Assembly (NCBI GenBank): GCA_020073015.1
Contig: JAIQFZ010000054.1
Coordinates: 1 to 43,749 of the forward strand
Direction: 5' to 3'
DNA: 43,749 bases
DNA from: Terriglobia bacterium
Lineage (GTDB): Bacteria > Acidobacteriota > Terriglobia > Terriglobales > Acidobacteriaceae
Under the pieces are notes generated by a model. The model was given only the letters and a program-made list of their open reading frames with translations, searched no databases and had not been told where the DNA came from. Numbering within the stretch: the first letter of the stretch is position 1; every line of letters begins with the position of its first letter. This document shows positions 4,623 to 43,749 of this stretch, piece after piece. The position numbers were made by a program, and so were the translations under genes.

Positions 4623-5327
4623 ATGGATACTATCCACCAATCATTGCATCTGTTGTGGAATGAACTGAGCGGGGTACTCAGTTCCACGCTGACGCGGCTG
4701 GTGGTAGCTGCGATCCTGGGCGGCATTATTGGTCTGGAGCGCCAGCTCCGGCATAAGCCGGCGGGCCTGCGAACCAACATGTTCATCTGTTTTGGCGCCG
4801 CCATGTTTACCGTGCTGTCGCGGCAACTCGCAGGTACCGAGGCAGACAGCGCGCGGATTGCAGCGCAGATCATCCCCGGCATCGGATTCATTGGCGCCGG
4901 CTCGATCCTGCATTCCCGCGGCTCGGTGACCGGCTTGACCACGGCCGCGACGCTGTTTGTCGTGGCTTCGGTCGGAATGGCGGTCGGCGGCGGCTTGTAT
5001 CTGACTGCCTGCTTCGCGACCGCCATCATCCTAATTGCGCTGGCGCTGCTCGGACGGCTAGAGCGCACCTACGCGTTGCGCACCGCCCTCACCACTTACG
5101 AGGTAACCGGCCGCAATGTGGACTCCATGCTGCGCGAGGTGAACCGCATCCTGAACGAAGAAAAACTCACCATGCAACGCGTGCATCTGGCTTCCGCCGA
5201 CCCGGACTTCCGCCTCGTTTTCGCCGTGGATTGTGAACGCGAGGAGCAAAACGTCTTCTCCCTTCGCCTGCACGAGTCGAACGTGTTCGCCGCCGTCACT
5301 CCGCTGGCCACCACGGAACACGAATGA
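4623..5327 (+). CDS. MgtC/SapB-family membrane protein
   Basis: A 234-residue inner-membrane protein. The MgtC signature is strong: LGGIIGLERQLRHKPAGLRTN near residues 37-57, then IIPGIGFIGAGSILH and TGLTTAATLFVVASVGMAVG. Four or five membrane helices are followed by a soluble C-terminal domain of about 80 residues (from TYALRTAL on), which resembles the ACT-like tail seen in MgtC proteins. MgtC relatives affect Mg2+ limitation and membrane ATP synthase in pathogens, but their role in free-living bacteria is unclear. Its stop overlaps the dapF start by 4 bp (ATGA), so the two are probably translated together. Confidence 0.88.
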   Translation: MDTIHQSLHLLWNELSGVLSSTLTRLVVAAILGGIIGLERQLRHKPAGLRTNMFICFGAAMFTVLSRQLAGTEADSARIAAQIIPGIGFIGAGSILHSRGSVTGLTTAATLFVVASVGMAVGGGLYLTACFATAIILIALALLGRLERTYALRTALTTYEVTGRNVDSMLREVNRILNEEKLTMQRVHLASADPDFRLVFAVDCEREEQNVFSLRLHESNVFAAVTPLATTEHE

Positions 5328-6118
5328 GCGCGACCGCCCACGGCATTCCATTTACGAAGGCCTCTGCTTGCGGCAATGACTTTCTGATCATCGACGCTGC
5401 CCATACCCCGGCGGACCTTGCGGCCCTCAGCCGGCGCTGGTGCGACCGGCACAATGGGATTGGCGCCGACGGCGTGGAGTGGCTGTTTCCCGATCCGGAG
5501 GCGGACGTGTTCGCCCGCTTGTTCAACGCGGATGGCTCGGAGGCGGAAATCTCGGGCAATGGCACACGTTGCGTCGCGGCCGATTTGTGCGCGCGCACTG
5601 GCAAAGAGCAAATCATCATCCGTACCGGTGCAGGCCTGAAGACGTGCCGGCTTACTGCACGGCGGGGCGCTACGTTTGAATTTGAGGCTGATATGGGGCA
5701 GCCCACCGTGGGCGAACTGGCGTCGATTGAAACGACAGCAGTCCGCGCCCAGGGAGCGAATGTTTCGATGGGCAATCCGCACTTTGTGATTTTTGTCGAT
5801 ACGTTTCCGGAGGGCTGGCAGCGGCAGGCGGCTCTGGTCGGCGCCCAGCCGCGATTTCCCCAGGGCACCAACGTGGAGTATGTGGTGGTGCGTGGTCCAA
5901 ATGAAATCGAAATTCGCCTATTCGAGCGCGGTGTAGGAGAAACGGAATCTTCCGGGACGGGCTCCTGTGCATCGGCCGTCGCCGCCATCGCCAGCCACCG
6001 GGTTTCTTCTCCGGTGACGGTAATTGCGCCCGGTGGCCCGCAAACGGTGCGTTGGGAGAAGCACGTATTTCTGACGGGTCCGGCGACGCTCGTTTGCCGG
6101 GGAGAGTTCATCGTTTAA
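5324..6118 (+). CDS. dapF: Diaminopimelate epimerase-like protein with Ser/Ser in place of catalytic Cys pair
   Basis: DapF converts LL- to meso-diaminopimelate for lysine and peptidoglycan. The 264-residue protein has the full DapF pattern: CGNDFLIIDA at the N-terminus, HNGIGADGVEW, FNADGSEAE, SMGNPHFVIFVD and a TGPA segment at the C-terminus. However, the two active-site positions read ISGNGTRC (Ser77, where E. coli has Cys73 in QCGNGARC) and TESSGTGSC (Ser210, where E. coli has Cys217 in QACGSGAC). The non-catalytic cysteines just downstream are kept. It overlaps mgtC by 4 bp and is followed 12 bp later by ldcA. It may be a functional variant or a DapF-fold enzyme with another reaction. 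Confidence 0.85.
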   Translation: MSATAHGIPFTKASACGNDFLIIDAAHTPADLAALSRRWCDRHNGIGADGVEWLFPDPEADVFARLFNADGSEAEISGNGTRCVAADLCARTGKEQIIIRTGAGLKTCRLTARRGATFEFEADMGQPTVGELASIETTAVRAQGANVSMGNPHFVIFVDTFPEGWQRQAALVGAQPRFPQGTNVEYVVVRGPNEIEIRLFERGVGETESSGTGSCASAVAAIASHRVSSPVTVIAPGGPQTVRWEKHVFLTGPATLVCRGEFIV

Positions 6119-34820: not shown

Positions 34821-35600
34821 CTACCTTTTATAGTCGAACCAGAATTCTACTGACACCCGGCTGCCGGAATAATCGGACGGCAACGGACCGAAGGTGTCGA
34901 TGCGCTGAATGGCACGCATGGCTGATATATCCAGCGACGGCACGCCGCTCGACTGTTCAATCTGCACGTTCGCCGGATGGCCATCGCGGCCGATGTCAAA
35001 CGTCAGGTACACACGATTGGCCTGCGTGATCCGCGGATCGATTTCATACTTCAGCCAGTTCTCGGAAACCTTCCGCTGCACGCTCTGCACATACCAGGAG
35101 AAACGGTTACCGAAATCGCCGCCGCCGCCGGTGAATCCGAATCCGCCCTTGGCGCCGCCGGCATTGAACATGGTATAGGGTCCGCTGACGGGGCCACCCT
35201 CGCCATACGGAACTTGATTCGATTCCGGTAGTTCCGGTTCCGGTTTGCGTTTGGTGGCGCTCGTCACCGGCTTGGGCTTGGTCTTCGTGCTTTTGTCGGG
35301 GATCGGGATCGCTTCGGGTTCTTTCTCCTCAACCTTGGGCTGCGACTGCGAGAGGCCCTTGGATTCGGTGGCCAGCACATTCGTGGTCTCAACCTTCGGT
35401 GCGGGCAAGGGAACCGAACTCACCAGCGTCGCGCCCATGGCATCGCCGCCACCGCCGCTGCCCCAGCCTTGGCCGCGAGTTCCGTGTACGAACAGGGTGT
35501 AGAAAACGACGAAGGCGGTGAACGCCAAGTGCAATCCGATTGACCAGCCGAGGGGCCGGGTGAGTCCGCGGTGTTCGGAATAAATGTCAGCGCTTGCCAT
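34821..35600 (-). CDS. TonB C-terminal domain protein, TolA-like
   Basis: Energy-transducing link between TolQR and the outer membrane. The 259-residue protein has one N-terminal membrane helix (LGWSIGLHLAFTAFVVFYTL), a Gly-rich then Pro/Lys/Glu-rich periplasmic spacer and a TonB-type C-terminal domain (VYLTFDIGRDGHPANVQIEQ onward, with SLDISAMRAIQRIDTFGPLP). In this cluster it most likely plays the TolA role. It starts at ATG 35600, overlapping the end of tolR by 14 bp. The C-terminal fold is TonB-like by motif, so a TonB function is possible. Confidence 0.85.
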   Translation of the reverse strand: MASADIYSEHRGLTRPLGWSIGLHLAFTAFVVFYTLFVHGTRGQGWGSGGGGDAMGATLVSSVPLPAPKVETTNVLATESKGLSQSQPKVEEKEPEAIPIPDKSTKTKPKPVTSATKRKPEPELPESNQVPYGEGGPVSGPYTMFNAGGAKGGFGFTGGGGDFGNRFSWYVQSVQRKVSENWLKYEIDPRITQANRVYLTFDIGRDGHPANVQIEQSSGVPSLDISAMRAIQRIDTFGPLPSDYSGSRVSVEFWFDYKR

Positions 35601-36012
35601 GGGAATCAATGGGCTGCGTCACGATGCTTACGTTGCTGATGCCGGCCTGCTTGATGGCGTCCATAACGGTGGCGAAGGCGCCGAAGGGGACGTCTTCATC
35701 GGAGCGCAGGTAGATGGACTGGTGCTGCGGGTCGCGAATTCGTTGTTTCAGCTTGGCGCCGATCTGGTTGATGTTGATGGGATCGTTGCCGAGGAAGACT
35801 TTTTGCGATTTGTCGATGCTGATGACGAGGCGCTCTTCGGTGATTTCTTTCACGGTGCGCGTGTGAGGCACGTTGACTTCGATGCCCGACTGGAGCACCG
35901 GAGCGGTCACCATGAAAATGATGAGCAGAACGAGAACAACATCGACCAGGGGTGTGACATTGATATCGGAGAGTGCCGTCTGGGTGCGTCCGTTGGCGGT
36001 GGTGAAGGCCAT
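35587..36012 (-). CDS. tolR: ExbD/TolR-family biopolymer transport protein
   Basis: Proton-motive-force coupling subunit, 141 residues. One membrane helix (LVDVVLVLLIIFMVTAPVL) carries the essential Asp of the LVD motif. The preceding INVTPLVD and the periplasmic RSDEDVPFGAFATVMDAIKQ are diagnostic. Its ATG shares one base with the tolQ stop (TGATG), so translation is coupled. The neighbours tolB and pal favour the Tol rather than the Exb assignment. Confidence 0.93.
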   Translation of the reverse strand: MAFTTANGRTQTALSDINVTPLVDVVLVLLIIFMVTAPVLQSGIEVNVPHTRTVKEITEERLVISIDKSQKVFLGNDPININQIGAKLKQRIRDPQHQSIYLRSDEDVPFGAFATVMDAIKQAGISNVSIVTQPIDSHGKR

Positions 36013-37804: not shown

Positions 37805-37956
37805 GCGCTTTATCTTCTGGAAGCGTGAAGAATGGAGGCAAACTCGGAAGTGCAACAATGCCCATTTTGGTAACTCGATAGGACGTAGGCGGTGCGCGCC
37901 GTCGGGCAGGGGCGGCCTGTGCTATGCTGCGCGTAATCCGCGATTCCAGGATTCTT

Positions 37957-39666
37957 GTGCTGGCCGAACTTCGACTCGAAAATTACGCCGTCATTGACAA
38001 CGTGGTGGTTGAGTTCGCCGCTGGACTGAACCTGCTGACGGGGGAAACCGGGGCGGGGAAGTCGATCCTGATTGATGCCCTGGGGTTGCTGCTGGGCGAG
38101 AAGGCGTCATCGGAAGTGATTCGGACGGGCGCGGAGCGGGCGGTGGTGGCGGCCGTGTTTGAGAGCGAGGGCTCGGCGCTCCGTGCCATCGAAGAAATCC
38201 TGGAAAACAATGGGCTGGATTCCGATGGTTCCTCGCTCATTCTGCGGCGCGAAATTGCGGCGGGTGGCAAGGGTCGGGTCTTCATCAATAATCAGCCGGC
38301 GACCGTTGCGGTGCTAAAGCAGATTGCGTCACACCTGGCGGTTGTCCATGCGCAGAACGAATCCATCGTGAACTTCGATGCGGCGGCCCGGCAGGAACTG
38401 CTCGATGCATACGCCGGAGTCGAGTTGAAAGAAGTGTCTGAGGCCTTCACGAACTGGAAGGGCATTCGCGAGCGCATTGCGGAACTGGAGCACGACGAAG
38501 CCAACCGGATGCGGCTGCTGGACCTGTGGAATTTTCAGTGCCGCGAGATCGAAGAGGCGCACCTGCAGGCCGGAGAAGACGAGCGCCTGGAGGTCGAGAA
38601 GCGAGTTCTCGCGAATGCGGAGAAGATTTACGGCGCGGCCATGCACGCCTTTGATCTGCTCTATGAGGGAGACGCCTCGACGTCTTCGAGCTTGCGGGCG
38701 GCGCAGAAGCACGTGGAAGAGTTGGCCCGGTATGAGCCGAAGTTTCAGGAGGCGCGGGCGGCACTGGAGTCGGCGCGGATCAGCGTGGAAGATGTGGGCG
38801 CAACGCTGCGCGATTACGCTGGGGGGATTCAGGCATCCCCAGAGCGGTTGGCTGAACTCGAAGAGCGTCTGGCGCTGCTGGATCGGCTGAAAAGGAAGTA
38901 CGGGCCAACGCTGGAGAATGTGATGGCTCTAGGCGAAGAAGTTCGCCGCAAACTGAATGAAATGGAGAATAAAGATCAAGTACTGCTTGAACTGCGAGCG
39001 AAGCTGGAGGCGGCGGCTGAGGAATATCGGAAGGCGGCGCGCGGTGTTTCGCGAAAGCGGACGGATTCGGGGCGAAAGTTAGAAAAACTGGTCGAGGCAG
39101 AGATCAACGATCTTGCCATGCGGGCCAGTTTTCGAATTGCGGTCGAAGAACACGAGGGCGAAGAGCACTGGATGGCGTCGGGCATCAATCAGGTGATCTA
39201 TCGGATTGCGCCGAATGCCGGGGAGACGATGCGTCCGCTGGAGCAGATCGCGTCGGGCGGGGAGTTGTCGCGGGTCATGCTGGCGCTGAAGGCGAGCGTG
39301 GAGGCGGGTAAGAGAAGTGTGGCGCGGGCGCCCTCGCCCGCGTCGAAGGCGGCGCAGCGCACGCTGGTGTTCGACGAAATCGATACCGGAATCGGCGGAC
39401 GGGCGGCAGAGGCGGTGGGGAGGAAGTTGAAGGCCTTGTCGAAAGCGAACCAGGTGCTGTGCGTGACCCACCTGCCGCAGATCGCGACGTTTGCCGATTA
39501 TCACTATTTGATTGAGAAGCGCGAGACTTCCGGGCGGACGAAGACTTCAGTGCGCCTGATTACGGGCGAGGAACGCACCGAGGAAGTGGCGCGCATGCTG
39601 TCTGGGGCGAAGCTGACGGAGACTTCGCGGAAGCATGCGGAGCAGATGATTCGGGCGAATGGGTGA
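37957..39666 (+). CDS. recN: DNA repair protein RecN
   Basis: SMC-like ATPase in double-strand break repair, 569 residues. GTG 37957 is chosen because CCAGG lies 6 nt upstream and the product then starts MLAELRLENYAVIDNV, the usual RecN N-terminus; ATG 37924 would add 11 residues. Walker A GETGAGKS is at 29-36; a long coiled coil spans about 150-370; the ABC signature SGGELSRVMLALK is followed by Walker B TLVFDEIDTGIGG. Between these, about residues 449-468 (GKRSVARAPSPASKAAQR) are longer than usual and are encoded by a copy of the window's REP-like repeat. Its 3' end is repeated at 42634-42720. Confidence 0.94.
   Translation: MLAELRLENYAVIDNVVVEFAAGLNLLTGETGAGKSILIDALGLLLGEKASSEVIRTGAERAVVAAVFESEGSALRAIEEILENNGLDSDGSSLILRREIAAGGKGRVFINNQPATVAVLKQIASHLAVVHAQNESIVNFDAAARQELLDAYAGVELKEVSEAFTNWKGIRERIAELEHDEANRMRLLDLWNFQCREIEEAHLQAGEDERLEVEKRVLANAEKIYGAAMHAFDLLYEGDASTSSSLRAAQKHVEELARYEPKFQEARAALESARISVEDVGATLRDYAGGIQASPERLAELEERLALLDRLKRKYGPTLENVMALGEEVRRKLNEMENKDQVLLELRAKLEAAAEEYRKAARGVSRKRTDSGRKLEKLVEAEINDLAMRASFRIAVEEHEGEEHWMASGINQVIYRIAPNAGETMRPLEQIASGGELSRVMLALKASVEAGKRSVARAPSPASKAAQRTLVFDEIDTGIGGRAAEAVGRKLKALSKANQVLCVTHLPQIATFADYHYLIEKRETSGRTKTSVRLITGEERTEEVARMLSGAKLTETSRKHAEQMIRANG
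39317..39343. repeat. REP-like palindrome inside recN, copy 5
   Basis: The 27 bases starting GTGTGGCGCGGGC match the reverse complement of copy 1 (15252-15280) at 23 of 27 positions by eye. Left arm GCGGGCG and right arm CGCCCGC still pair. It is read in frame as VARAPSPAS in the loop before Walker B. Confidence 0.7.
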
Positions 39667-39735
39667 GTGGTTGCACTATGAACAGTCCACGCTAGCTGGG
39701 ACGTTGTACAGACTGATGCCCTCTGTGATTCTCAG

Positions 39736-39762
39736 GAAGGCCGGGGTACGCACCCGGCCTTC
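39736..39762. terminator. Hairpin between convergent recN and secreted-protein gene
   Basis: GAAGGCCGGG (39736-39745) and CCCGGCCTTC (39753-39762) form a perfect 10-bp stem with a 7-nt loop. It lies 69 bp after recN and 15 bp after the stop of the opposing gene. T-tracts are absent, so termination is likely but not certain. Confidence 0.6.
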
Positions 39763-39777
39763 CCCCGATGGCTCGTT

Positions 39778-40191
39778 TCAGCGTCCCAGATACATGGTGA
39801 CATGCTGCGGTTCGCGGTTCTTCGCCAGCATCAGTTCCGATGGATGCTGCAGCATGATCCGGCCAGTCTCATAGCCTGGCGTCCAGATCTCACTCACATA
39901 GTAGTGGCCGCCATAGCGATGGAAGACAAGTTTGTACTTGTCCGCAGCTCCCGGTTTCTGGATCGGCAGGCTGGTGATGAATACGTTTACGTTTCCATCC
40001 GCGCTGCGGAACGACAGCTTTCCCGGCTGTGCGACGACCCGCACCGTGTATTCGCCCGCCGGCACCAGTCGATCGCCGACCACGAAGGCGAACGGCGTTC
40101 TGAAAGTGAGTGGCTCGGTTGACTGCGCGTTCGCCATTCCCACGGCGAGCCCGACGATCACTACGAGAAGCGCGATTGCTTTGCTTTTCAT
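39778..40191 (-). CDS. Small secreted protein of unknown function
   Basis: A 137-residue protein with the signal peptide MKSKAIALLVVIVGLAVGMANA, then a compact beta-rich domain: FRTPFAFVVGDRLVPAGEYT, SADGNVNVF, HRYGGHYYVSEIWTPG and a C-terminus rich in Glu, Lys and Arg. I recall similar short proteins as frequent in Acidobacteriota but do not know a function. AAGGAGG lies 6 nt before ATG 40191, the best ribosome site in the window, so it is probably well expressed. It is divergent from the winged-helix/propeller gene. Confidence 0.75.
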   Translation of the reverse strand: MKSKAIALLVVIVGLAVGMANAQSTEPLTFRTPFAFVVGDRLVPAGEYTVRVVAQPGKLSFRSADGNVNVFITSLPIQKPGAADKYKLVFHRYGGHYYVSEIWTPGYETGRIMLQHPSELMLAKNREPQHVTMYLGR

Positions 40192-40204
40192 AAGTCCTCC
40201 TTAT

Positions 40205-40264
40205 GGTTCCCTGGATTTTCTGGGAACCTGCGCGCACTATCGGGCGAGTCGCTTTCCGGATCAA
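40205..40264 (-). promoter_or_regulatory. Promoter and leader hairpin of the secreted-protein gene
   Basis: On the minus strand TTGATC (40264-40259), a 17-bp spacer and GATAGT (40241-40236) form a plausible sigma-70 promoter. The leader then carries GGTTCCC/GGGAACC arms (40228-40222 and 40211-40205) just before the ribosome site. Confidence 0.45.
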
Positions 40265-40334
40265 TACACTGCAGATAGATCGGAGGTGAGATAGAAGTAT
40301 CCGGCTAAGTGGCTGGAGAGGCAGTTCTTAATCG

Positions 40335-40348
40335 CCTGTATATACAGG
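40335..40348. promoter_or_regulatory. Perfect 14-bp palindrome, candidate operator
   Basis: CCTGTATATACAGG lies in the 288-bp divergent gap, 132 bp before the winged-helix gene. It is shorter than the E. coli LexA box (CTG-N10-CAG; here CTG-N6-CAG), so a dimeric regulator other than E. coli-type LexA is more likely. Confidence 0.4.
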
Positions 40349-40479
40349 ACCAGAACACCAGGCACAATAACGAGAGCTTCCAGTCATGCGCTAAATGGGA
40401 ATAGAATTCAGAACAGACCGCCGGGATATTGAAGTGTGCAGTCTGTCAGTCGCTAACCTTGGCGGAACGGGGCAGCTGT

Positions 40480-42576
40480 ATGGAACAGACTACGGTCTCC
40501 CCACGCGTATACCGCTTCGGCTCGTTTGAGCTTTCCGTCGAGGCTGCCGAGTTGCGCAAGAACGGCGTCCGCCTCAAGCTACAGGACCAGCCCTTCCATA
40601 TCCTCCGTACCCTGCTCGAACATCCCGGCGAACTTGTTACTCGCGAACAACTTCGCCAGCAACTTTGGCGCGAAGGCACCTTTGTTGACTTCGAACACGG
40701 CTTGAATACCGCTATCAAGAAAATTCGCGATGTTCTCGGGGACGACGCCGATACGCCGCGCTACATCGAAACCGTCCCCCGCAAGGGATACAGGTTTCTT
40801 GTGCCGGCGAATCGAGATGCCGCGGCAGTGGTCCAGGCGCCGCCGCCTTCTTCACGGAGTCATTGGCAATCGCGCACTCTAGTTCTCATCGTAGCCCTCG
40901 CCGTCGCGATCGGGATCGTTGTGCTCGTCCTCCGCGAACGTTCGTATCCACCGAATCTCCGCATCACCGCGACCCGGCAACTGACCTTTACCGGTGACGT
41001 GTCGCCTTTCTCCACCATCGAAACCGATGGCCGGCGCGTGTACTACTTCAAGTATCTTGACAGTCACCTCTACTCAGTCCCCGTAGGCGGGGGACCGGAG
41101 AGTAGTTATGCCACCAGGTTTCGCGAGCCGGTCATTCTCCACATTTCACCGGATGGCTCGACTTTGCTCGTGAAGGAATCAATCGGTGTTTCTGGCGGGA
41201 GAAGTGACCGTATTTGGCTGCTGCCTACGAACGGTGGTCCGGCGCGACCATTGGGAGACATCGAAGCGCAGTCCGCAGCCTGGTCGCCCGATGGTAAGGC
41301 CATCGCTTTTGCGCAACACGAAGCCCTTTACCGGACCGAGGATGAGGGAGCTACTTACCGCCGGCTCGTGAATACGACGGGAGATGTTCCGTGGATGCGC
41401 TGGTCACCCGACGGCCGGCATCTGCGATTTACCGTAACCGATTCCAAGACTCGCGTTTCTTCGACCTGGGAAGCTGGCCACAACAGCCAGGTGCACTCTG
41501 TCGCGATGAATCTGGGACGGCCCCTAGATACCTGTTGCGGAATCTGGACGAGGGACAGCAGGTATTTCTTTTTCCGCGAGCTTCGCGGCGAACGAACCGA
41601 CTATTGGGCCGCCAAAGAGATCTGGTCGCCGTTGCGGTCCGGAAAGCCTTCTTTGCTCAGCGGCGGAGGCATGGAGATGGTTGCTGCCACTGCCAGTCCG
41701 CTCGAGGACTCGCTTTTTGTCGTCGGGCACGAGGAGTCAGGGATGATATTCAAGTTTGATCTTGCGCGCCGGCAGCTTACGCCATTCCTGCCGGAACTCA
41801 GCGTTCAAGATCCCGATTTCTCGTCAGACGGTAAATGGATGGTTCTTTGCCAACTGCACACCCGGCAAAGTGTTCTCTGGCGTGCCCGAAGCGATGGCAG
41901 TGAGTGGCTTCAGTTGACCGACCCTAAATTGTTCGTCGGTTACGCACGCTTTTCCCCGGATGGTAAACGCATCGCTGTGATGGCCAAATGGCCCGACCAA
42001 CCATGGAAGATCTACTGGGTCTCTGCCGACGGCGGCGCTCTTCACGAACTCAACGTGCCCATCACAAGTCAGGCTGACCCCAACTGGATGGCTGACAATG
42101 AATCGATCATTTTCGGCCAGCCGCCGCGTTGGTTTGCCGAGCCAGATTCTCCGCGAGCGATCTATATCCACAGCCTCCAGACCGGCTCCATTTCGAAAGT
42201 GCCAGGTTCAGAAGGCTGGTACAGTCCGCGCCTATCACCGGATGGCCGCCGCCTGTTGGCGCTCTCCATCGACGAGCACAAGCTCGCCCTCTATGACTTT
42301 GCTACCTCACAATGGCGCATTTTGGTTCAGAGCCCGCGGAAGAGAATAGGATCGCCAATTTGGTCGCCCGATGGGCAATGGGCTTATGTGAATACATATG
42401 GGAAGAACGGCTCTGTCCTTCGCATCCGGATCCGCGACGGCATCACCGAAGAGATCCTGTCGTTCGGTGAAAGGATTGCAAGCCCAAGCTGTTATGCGTG
42501 GAGCGCGCTGAATGCATCACTCCTGATTAGCTGCGCTCGCCCCAACTCCAACATCTACGCCCTGCACTACGAGTGA
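40480..42576 (+). CDS. Winged-helix DNA-binding, membrane-anchored beta-propeller protein
   Basis: A 698-residue one-component receptor-like protein. Residues about 8-105 are an OmpR/CadC winged helix (YRFGSFELSVEAAELRKNGV, LLEHPGELVTREQLRQQLW, GLNTAIKKIRDVLGDD, YIETVPRKGYRFLVP). A membrane helix follows at about 130-150 (TLVLIVALAVAIGIVVLVL). The rest (about 165-698) is a TolB/WD-like propeller with repeated SPDGK motifs (AAWSPDGKAIAF, MRWSPDGRHLRF, ARFSPDGKRIAV, PRLSPDGRRLLA, PIWSPDGQWAYV). The architecture suggests sensing outside and transcription control at the membrane, like CadC. ATG 40480 has GGGG 7 nt upstream. Confidence 0.88.
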   Translation: MEQTTVSPRVYRFGSFELSVEAAELRKNGVRLKLQDQPFHILRTLLEHPGELVTREQLRQQLWREGTFVDFEHGLNTAIKKIRDVLGDDADTPRYIETVPRKGYRFLVPANRDAAAVVQAPPPSSRSHWQSRTLVLIVALAVAIGIVVLVLRERSYPPNLRITATRQLTFTGDVSPFSTIETDGRRVYYFKYLDSHLYSVPVGGGPESSYATRFREPVILHISPDGSTLLVKESIGVSGGRSDRIWLLPTNGGPARPLGDIEAQSAAWSPDGKAIAFAQHEALYRTEDEGATYRRLVNTTGDVPWMRWSPDGRHLRFTVTDSKTRVSSTWEAGHNSQVHSVAMNLGRPLDTCCGIWTRDSRYFFFRELRGERTDYWAAKEIWSPLRSGKPSLLSGGGMEMVAATASPLEDSLFVVGHEESGMIFKFDLARRQLTPFLPELSVQDPDFSSDGKWMVLCQLHTRQSVLWRARSDGSEWLQLTDPKLFVGYARFSPDGKRIAVMAKWPDQPWKIYWVSADGGALHELNVPITSQADPNWMADNESIIFGQPPRWFAEPDSPRAIYIHSLQTGSISKVPGSEGWYSPRLSPDGRRLLALSIDEHKLALYDFATSQWRILVQSPRKRIGSPIWSPDGQWAYVNTYGKNGSVLRIRIRDGITEEILSFGERIASPSCYAWSALNASLLISCARPNSNIYALHYE

Positions 42577-42633
42577 AGGGTCTACTTTGCCTTCACCGGC
42601 ACTTCGCAGATTTTTCAACTGTTCTGCGGCGGC

Positions 42634-42720
42634 GAAGAGGTAGCGCGTATGCTATCCGGGGCGAAACTGACCGAGACTTCGCGGAAGCATGTGGAACAGA
42701 TGATTAAGGAGAGTGGGTGA
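42634..42720 (+). pseudogene. Detached 3' end of a second recN
   Basis: These 87 bases align without gaps to the last 87 bases of the resident recN (39580-39666), with 14 mismatches. Nine of them are synonymous third-position changes. The product would be EEVARMLSGAKLTETSRKHV followed by EQMIKESG and a stop. No homology to recN is seen upstream of 42634. It must come from a recN that evolved under selection and then lost its 5' part. Confidence 0.85.
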
Positions 42721-42734
42721 AGCCGAAGAAGCTC

Positions 42735-43160
42735 CTACAGCACCAGCACATCGGTGCCATGCGATTGAAGTGCGCGGTCAAAGGTGATGAACTTTAGGCC
42801 TGCGACGGCGGCAAAAGCCAGAAGGTAAGCGTCCGCCCAAACCTTTGGGGACCGACTGGACAGCCGGGACCGCGAACGAAACTCCTTTTCGAGATCCTCG
42901 GGCTCCGGCAAGAAGGCAATGCGAGTATCCGCCCAGATTCGGTCCCACAAATTCCAGGCTTCGGACATGGTCTTCGTGTCCTTTCCCATGATCGGATCGG
43001 TAGTGAGCAGCCTCAGGACGGTCATCTGGGTGAAACGGCAGAAGAAGAATTGCTCCTCGCCGGCCTGCTCGAACCAACCTTGGGCTCTTTCTGAATGCAC
43101 GTGCCGGCTCCAAATCAGCGCCAGCCACACGTTCGCATCAAGGAAATTCAACGTGTTCAT
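42735..43160 (-). CDS. vapC: PIN-domain toxin, VapC-like ribonuclease
   Basis: A 141-residue PIN domain protein. NFLDANVWLAL holds the first catalytic Asp (Asp8), WADAYLLAFA the central Asp, and LKFITFDRAL the last. VapC toxins cut tRNA or rRNA and are held inactive by VapB (family knowledge). Its start lies within the last 23 bp of the upstream antitoxin gene, the usual order antitoxin-toxin. It sits directly after the recN fragment, next to the putative island boundary. Confidence 0.88.
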   Translation of the reverse strand: MNTLNFLDANVWLALIWSRHVHSERAQGWFEQAGEEQFFFCRFTQMTVLRLLTTDPIMGKDTKTMSEAWNLWDRIWADTRIAFLPEPEDLEKEFRSRSRLSSRSPKVWADAYLLAFAAVAGLKFITFDRALQSHGTDVLVL

Positions 43161-43380
43161 AGATTTGTTCGTTGGTGAGGTCGATCTTCGGGCCGTCGGA
43201 GACGATCAGTGGGAACTGCACTCTCTTAGGACGCGGGTGCTGGCCTTGCAGGAGCACAGTTCTGACCCCCGCTAGGACCAGCTCGCGCACCGAGCGGCCG
43301 TTCGCGGCCGCTTGTGCTTTTAGCTTCCGGTATAGGGGCGATGGAATGTCAACTGTGGTGCGAACCGAATCGCGCTTCAT
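43138..43380 (-). CDS. vapB: Antitoxin, VapB-like ribbon-helix-helix protein
   Basis: An 80-residue protein. MKRDSVRTTVDIPSPLYRKL and the following KAQAAANGRSVRELVLAGV form a ribbon-helix-helix DNA-binding domain. The C-terminal 35 residues (KRVQFPLIVSDGPKIDL...) would wrap the toxin. ATG 43380 is preferred; a longer in-frame start at 43503 adds a non-homologous segment. It overlaps vapC by 23 bp, giving coupled translation and, by analogy, autoregulation at its own promoter. Confidence 0.83.
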   Translation of the reverse strand: MKRDSVRTTVDIPSPLYRKLKAQAAANGRSVRELVLAGVRTVLLQGQHPRPKRVQFPLIVSDGPKIDLTNEQIYEHVEFP

Positions 43381-43595
43381 CGACGCTATTATCCCATGCG
43401 TGCCATAAATATGGAAGTACAGTCGTGCGGTCCTCGGGCAAGCACCGCAATCGGCGGGGTGCCGTTCACTCCCCGGATTCCGCCGATCACTGCTAATCCT
43501 CACAGTCTCAAAGGCTTACATTGACCTTGGGAGCCGTTTTCGGTACCCTATAGAGAATCTTTTCCAGTGGAACGTGTAACCTAAGAAAGTGGGGG

Positions 43596-43749
43596 ATGGC
43601 TTTGTCTGAGAGCAAGAGTTTACTGCTGTTGAAGCCGCGTGGGTTCTGCGCCGGGGTGGTGCGGGCCATTGACATTGTGCGGATCGCGCTGGAGGCGTTT
43701 GGGCGGCCGATTTATGTGCGCAAAGAGATTGTCCACAACCGGTTTGTAG
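43596..43749 (+). CDS. ispH: 4-hydroxy-3-methylbut-2-enyl diphosphate reductase (5' part only)
   Basis: Last enzyme of the MEP isoprenoid pathway, an iron-sulfur protein. Only 51 codons are inside the window. [18 protein letters not shown] has the first cluster-ligand Cys, and [12 protein letters not shown] matches the usual YVRHEIVHN with His to Lys at one place. ATG 43596 is preceded by AAGTGGGGG. TTGACC (43521-43526) and TACCCT (43544-43549) with 17-bp spacing are a weak promoter candidate. Confidence 0.93.

Follow-up and report, generated by a model that had tools for sequence, protein, structure and literature searches.

A second recN 3' end beside a predicted vapBC pair in a Terriglobia bacterium as a possible scar of gene transfer

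Why does the 3' end of recN occur twice, about 3 kb apart, in a Terriglobia bacterium, and which of the two copies is foreign? The window analyzed here is the whole of contig C3 (43,749 nucleotides), probably from a metagenome-assembled genome (MAG), and belongs to a genome of 5.5 Mb in 245 contigs (G000). It carries a full-length recN on the forward strand (37924..39666), identified by the NCBIfam equivalog TIGR00634, and a repeat search found that its 3' end (39579-39666, taken as the reference copy) recurs on the same strand at 42633-42720, a segment hereafter called the stump. The two 88-nucleotide copies are identical at 74 positions (84%; blastn E 2.5e-21), with a 19-base identical run counted by eye, and both run to the stop codon of recN; a genome search at E<=0.001 found no further recN match. 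Nine of the 14 differences are silent, and the remaining five nucleotides alter four residues (A>V, R>K, A>E, N>S). Counted by codon position, 1, 4 and 9 of the differences fall at positions 1, 2 and 3. These counts confirmed the original prediction of a repeated recN end of about 84% identity with mostly synonymous differences. In 20,000 simulated runs, in which 14 random changes were all placed on one copy, the resident tail, with transitions taken as half, at least nine silent codons were obtained in 0.0003 of the runs and at least nine third-position changes in 0.01. A local copy decaying under purely neutral change is thus unlikely, although the argument would weaken if some changes fell on the resident side, which is under selection; the stump resembles the end of a recN from another lineage, one once under selection. 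Identity of 84% is by itself compatible with a copy made within the lineage, since the silent divergence between G000 and its sister genome G019 is already 0.47.

The stretch between the two ends holds a divergent pair of genes, namely a small secreted-type protein of 137 amino acids (39778..40191, reverse strand), its signal-like start being judged by eye, and a CadC-like regulator of 698 amino acids (40480..42576, forward strand), in which a winged helix (Pfam Trans_reg_C) is joined to a PD40/TolB-like propeller (Pfam PD40). At E<=0.001 the small protein had no match in Pfam or NCBIfam, and no recombinase family was found when both genes were scanned against the two collections. At six of the nine other loci of the genus sample where homologues of the small protein were found, they adjoin a divergent CadC-like gene, and two of the remaining three are short loci at contig ends. 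Matches to the CadC-like gene at E<=1e-130 occur in only 3 of 398 family genomes, G000 included; the best family matches, sought as a possible donor, reached 38 and 41% at the amino acid level, and no island donor was found among them, nor did positions 39660-42640 align at the DNA level (E<=0.001) with any other recN locus of the genus that was compared. The island is a recurring divergent gene pair that was inserted here separately and is locally unique. In composition the island is equivocal: the codon-bias distance of the CadC-like gene (0.317) lies inside the native range of 0.23-0.52, and its GC3 is lower (0.65 versus 0.73-0.81). Our literature search found no paper on acidobacterial CadC/WD40 regulators and none on recN as an integration site.

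To decide which end is native, the resident recN was compared in blocks of 40 codons within a set of 20 recN sequences, representing 20 of the 24 genomes of this uncultured acidobacterial genus (G005, G010, G012 and G013 were omitted as split, partial or missing). G019 was its nearest sequence in 12 of the 15 blocks, and its protein is 93% identical to that of G019, against 79-87% for the other near-full-length copies of the genus. The recN tree likewise pairs G000 with G019 (support 1.000), and the upstream genes agree with this relation among the matches listed. The exceptions are block 120, where G006 is nearest (88.3 versus 87.5 for G019), block 440 (39247-39366), where the values are 83.8% for G001, 80.2% for G011 and 76.6% for G019, and the short last block of 20 codons, which is closer to G020 (98.2 versus 94.7 for G019) and also to G009. 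A mosaic recN was discarded; small exchanges at the three exceptional blocks are possible, including one at 39247-39366. Repeated exchange at the recN tail was also considered, as silent conservation there between G000/G019 and 11 other genomes is 0.71 against a mean of 0.54 (sd 0.086; rank 11 of 560 windows), but the signal was too weak, all pairs together giving only 0.60 versus 0.54. On these comparisons, the resident recN is for the most part vertically inherited. Replacement of the native allele by a foreign recN, as the original prediction had envisaged, thus finds no favor here except in a two-step version considered below; the prediction was probably right about a second recN lineage and probably wrong about which copy is foreign.

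The stop codon of vapC lies 14 bases past that of the stump, and vapB and ispH follow. The vapC gene (42735..43160, reverse strand) matched both Pfam PIN (PF01850) and NCBIfam TIGR00028 over their cut-offs. Candidate vapB (43138..43380, reverse strand) is an 80-residue frame, part of a longer open frame, that overlaps vapC and gave a weak FitA-like RHH match (21.1 versus a cut-off of 27 bits); no NCBIfam family was found for it, and a vapB partner was present at all 15 vapC loci examined. By its PIN-domain VapC, vapBC is a predicted toxin-antitoxin pair, and no second vapC was found in the genome at E<=1e-20.

A recN match was obtained in 23 of the 24 genomes of the genus, including G000, and the recN-ispH gap, which in the window corresponds to 39667-43595, was closed in 19 (all except G008, G012, G013, G020 and G022). 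In G002 and G023 recN is directly followed by vapCB, an arrangement that the original prediction had asked to look for in some strains, with a phd/vapC2 pair and ispH further along. The gap of the sister G019 contains phd/vapC2 and lacks vapCB, whereas that of G000, unlike those of G002 and G023, is devoid of phd/vapC2. Altogether, 10 of the 19 closed gaps contain toxin-antitoxin pairs, and these are of at least three kinds: vapCB in G000, G002 and G023; phd/vapC2 in G002, G023, G003, G007, G011, G019, G014 and G004; and a HigB-like toxin with an HTH partner in G010. Remnants of vapB were seen in the gaps of G009, G006 and G003. The recN-ispH gap thus behaves like a toxin-antitoxin hotspot. 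The gap of G003 (L041) also contains an IS1-type transposase match over cut-off. The order recN, small protein, CadC-like gene and ispH without the stump was seen in no relative examined.

When the stump, spacer and vapCB were aligned together, each of the two relatives returned a single blastn piece, with 83% identity over 791 columns for G002 and 85% over 801 columns for G023. The vapBC pair had been described as lying immediately outside the island; it instead forms one colinear block with the stump, and the proposed imported block, comprising the recN tail, vapCB and a further 37 bp, extends over 42633..43417. Its ancestry was examined through silent distances, which for vapCB are 0.46 (G000-G023), 0.62 (G000-G002) and 0.55 (G002-G023), and for recN 1.13, 1.06 and 0.49, respectively. 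Expressed as the ratio of the distance of G000 from the other two over that between G002 and G023, the value is 0.99 for vapCB (CI 0.73-1.34, 300 bootstraps) and 2.23 for recN (CI 1.80-2.84, 60 bootstraps). Control genes were hand-chosen open reading frames with more silent than replacement change; three of those chosen lack a G023 counterpart, and the seven testable ones gave 1.33, 1.80, 2.11, 2.31, 2.42, 2.94 and 3.33 (60 bootstraps each), the two lowest having intervals that overlap that of vapCB (34821-35609, 1.02-1.91; 35587-36012, 1.21-3.16). Since its ratio is below those of recN and the controls, vapCB fits poorly with vertical descent from the G000/G019 split, and the stump and vapBC probably arrived together from the G002/G023 side of the genus. 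Transfer from that side, and not the reverse, is suggested by the vapB remnants in other members and by the alike G002-G023 distances of vapCB and recN. Relatives of vapCB occur elsewhere in the family, including at other loci and in other genera; among 15 vapC loci with flanks of up to ~1.5 kb, a sample that did not include G002, a recN match was found in the flanks of G000 and G023 only. A vapCB tree of 15 taxa was not used, as its support was low and it contained one long, oddly placed branch (G202).

On the right side, the contig ends 154 bases into ispH, so that the last part of the window (43462..43749, forward strand) consists of the ispH upstream region and the start of the gene, which continues on contig C34 through a perfect 139-bp overlap (43611-43749). 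This break inside ispH may reflect strain variation at the gap. Over the first 963 bases of ispH on C34, identity is 90.6% with G019 and does not exceed 85.9% with any of the 17 other loci of the genus that matched; most of ispH is therefore native sequence. Nearer the block, the noncoding part of 43462-43749 is 82.3% identical to G017 over 96 columns and 82.1% to G019 over 117, and in the first 154 bases of ispH (43596-43749) G001 (91.8%), G010, G017 and G004 are all nearer than the sister G019 (88.8%). When C34 was split into 80-base blocks, G019 came third in the first block and seventh in the second, and was the nearest in 12 of the 16 that followed. Because the nearest 290 bases fit no one relative and later ispH is mostly G019-like, the right edge of the foreign stretch is placed between 43417 and ~160 bases into ispH, and the first bases of ispH are possibly the edge of the exchange itself.

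Taken by itself, the stump does not point to G002 or G023. Of its 88 positions, 76 are shared with G009, 74 each with the resident recN, G020 and G014, 72 with G002 and 71 with G023, so that it is as close to the resident recN as to either proposed donor type. Likelihood placement on the recN tree, using 84 nucleotides, put it best beside G009; a place beside the resident recN was 2.28 log units worse (AU p 0.219) and one beside G023 2.39 worse (AU p 0.096), whereas G002 (p 0.037), G019 (0.042) and the group of G006, G020 and G023 (0.043) were rejected at AU 0.05. The recN tree that had been proposed as a check did not decide whether the stump stands apart from the resident copy: 37 positions lay within 3.4 log units, as 84 nucleotides leave most placements open. 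As the sequence of the stump says little, the case for its foreign origin is built on two observations, its colinear match with vapCB and the excess of silent differences.

A comparable, independent structure was found in G011 (L031, oriented 5232-5428), where a 197-bp recN tail, decayed and broken in frame, begins 114 bp after the stop codon of an intact recN and lies ~100 bp ahead of a phd/vapC2 pair. The identity of this tail is 78% with the recN of G011 itself and 83% with the G020 recN, and its last 84 nucleotides were no better resolved on the recN tree. At replacement sites, the distance of the G011 phd/vapC2 pair to G002, G023 and G003 over their mutual distance has a median of 3.77 (2.61-5.66, 60 bootstraps), compared with 1.12 (0.94-1.44) for recN, for which faster evolution of the pair is an alternative to discordant ancestry. 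In a wider survey, the recN tail was found in 282 of 300 family genomes and more than once in six, among which only G000 and G011 had a second tail behind recN; the candidates in G182, G201, G223 and G299 proved to be contig-start fragments or whole second copies, except that one of the three G223 matches of the first survey was untraced, two being recovered on follow-up. Of 80 named loci, 74 had the recN end and at least 300 bp downstream, and only L096, on the same contig as the G011 tail, had a second one, in surveys that would miss very short tails.

On balance, and by no great measure, we consider it probable that the stump is the hitchhiking 3' end of the recN of a related soil species, imported together with vapCB by homology-facilitated illegitimate recombination (HFIR). 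On the donor side, of the G002 and G023 type, recN would have been directly followed by vapCB and, further on, ispH, and a fragment running from the recN tail through vapCB would have entered the G000 lineage from there. The recipient's own recN, followed by the small-protein/CadC-like pair, would have kept its place, while the fragment recombined, probably by homology, at its ispH end and was attached at its recN end, downstream of CadC, by a join lacking homology, thereby stranding the last 88 bases of the donor recN. The recN homology stops at 42633 by blastn and CadC ends at 42576, leaving one non-homologous junction in a homologous gene, as in HFIR. When the 56 bp before the stump were compared with nine recN sequences, seven gave shuffle p values of 0.09-0.52, and G020 and G009 gave 0.013 and 0.017 (uncorrected); the stump may reach slightly further upstream than 42633. 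By eye, G009 has a repeated GAAGAG in this region that could have lost 12 bases. Family matches to ComEC and DprA are present in the genome, although E. coli and most controls match too, and they only allow for DNA uptake.

The same final structure could have arisen in two steps, an unlikely reading in which homologous recombination gave an ancestor a foreign recN end with vapCB, and a conspecific fragment with a native-type recN end and the CadC pair later recombined in recN, joined illegitimately inside the recN tail and displaced the older tail as the stump. The colinearity and silent distances of vapCB fit this order too, G020 and G009 are nearer than G019 in the last block of recN, though that block has only 20 codons, and gene displacement after illegitimate joining is proposed for the immunity arrays of Vibrio T6SS clusters (PMC5361080). 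Two separate events are required, however, together with a donor of the island whose recN resembled that of G019, and neither intermediate is present in the 19 closed gaps. Less probable still is a local duplication, whereby the recN tail was duplicated within the lineage as the island went in, the copy drifted, and vapCB was ancestral at the locus. The place of the stump beside the resident recN, to which it is as close as to most relatives, was not rejected and agrees with such an origin, and the vapB remnants in three other gaps suggest an old vapCB; these are opposed by the silent excess (P 0.0003 under neutral change), the similarity of vapCB to G002 and G023, which is too high for vertical descent, and the lack of vapCB in the sister genome.

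Integrative elements can use the 3' end of a gene and restore it. The recN 3' end on both sides of the inserted stretch, with the 19-base identical run inside it, resembles such integration, and the original prediction had offered an attachment-like target as its second possibility. That a mobile element integrated in the recN 3' end and supplied a replacement end is nevertheless very improbable, considering that neither of the two island genes scanned is a recombinase, that the outer copy is tied to vapCB as in the relatives, that the break points differ (88 nucleotides in G000 versus 197 in G011, two cases only), and that no in-locus second tail was found besides that of G011. An assembly chimera is the least credible of all. 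The named relatives are MAGs, and the end of the contig within ispH, with its overlap to C34, is a break in the assembly graph; however, a chimera would need two joins, with native recN before and native ispH after, and searches of the bin found neither another full recN (E<=0.001) nor another vapC (E<=1e-20).

Hitchhiking import of the recN tail with vapCB, our preferred reading, has a counterpart in Vibrio T6SS clusters, where HFIR is proposed as the source of displaced or orphan immunity-gene arrays (PMC5361080). In both, homology on one side would be combined with a non-homologous join on the other, by which new genes are added and a gene piece or an old gene is stranded downstream; in our locus, unlike those arrays, what is stranded is the 3' end of a housekeeping gene for DNA repair beside a type II toxin-antitoxin pair, and the anchor and join are deduced from relatives rather than from a known donor. 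Like the mobile chromosomal type II pairs vapBC, phd/vapC and higBA, the pair has relatives at other loci and in other genera and is patchy in one intergenic gap, but unlike them it carries an apparent scar of the donor's neighboring recN. Overall, the repeated recN end is real and mostly explained by known processes; read as a transfer scar it is instructive, though a fairly ordinary trace of gene transfer. A broader proposal, which we regard as doubtful and advance only tentatively, is that the recN-ispH gap of the genus is a docking site where species swap toxin-antitoxin pairs, the recN 3' end traveling as a homology arm and failed joins leaving tails as fossils that record each swap. A stranded core-gene end beside a toxin-antitoxin pair would offer a direct record of the origin and joining of the pair, which is usually lost, and should the same pattern extend through the genus, how chromosomal toxin-antitoxin pairs pass from one species to another would become testable from genomes.
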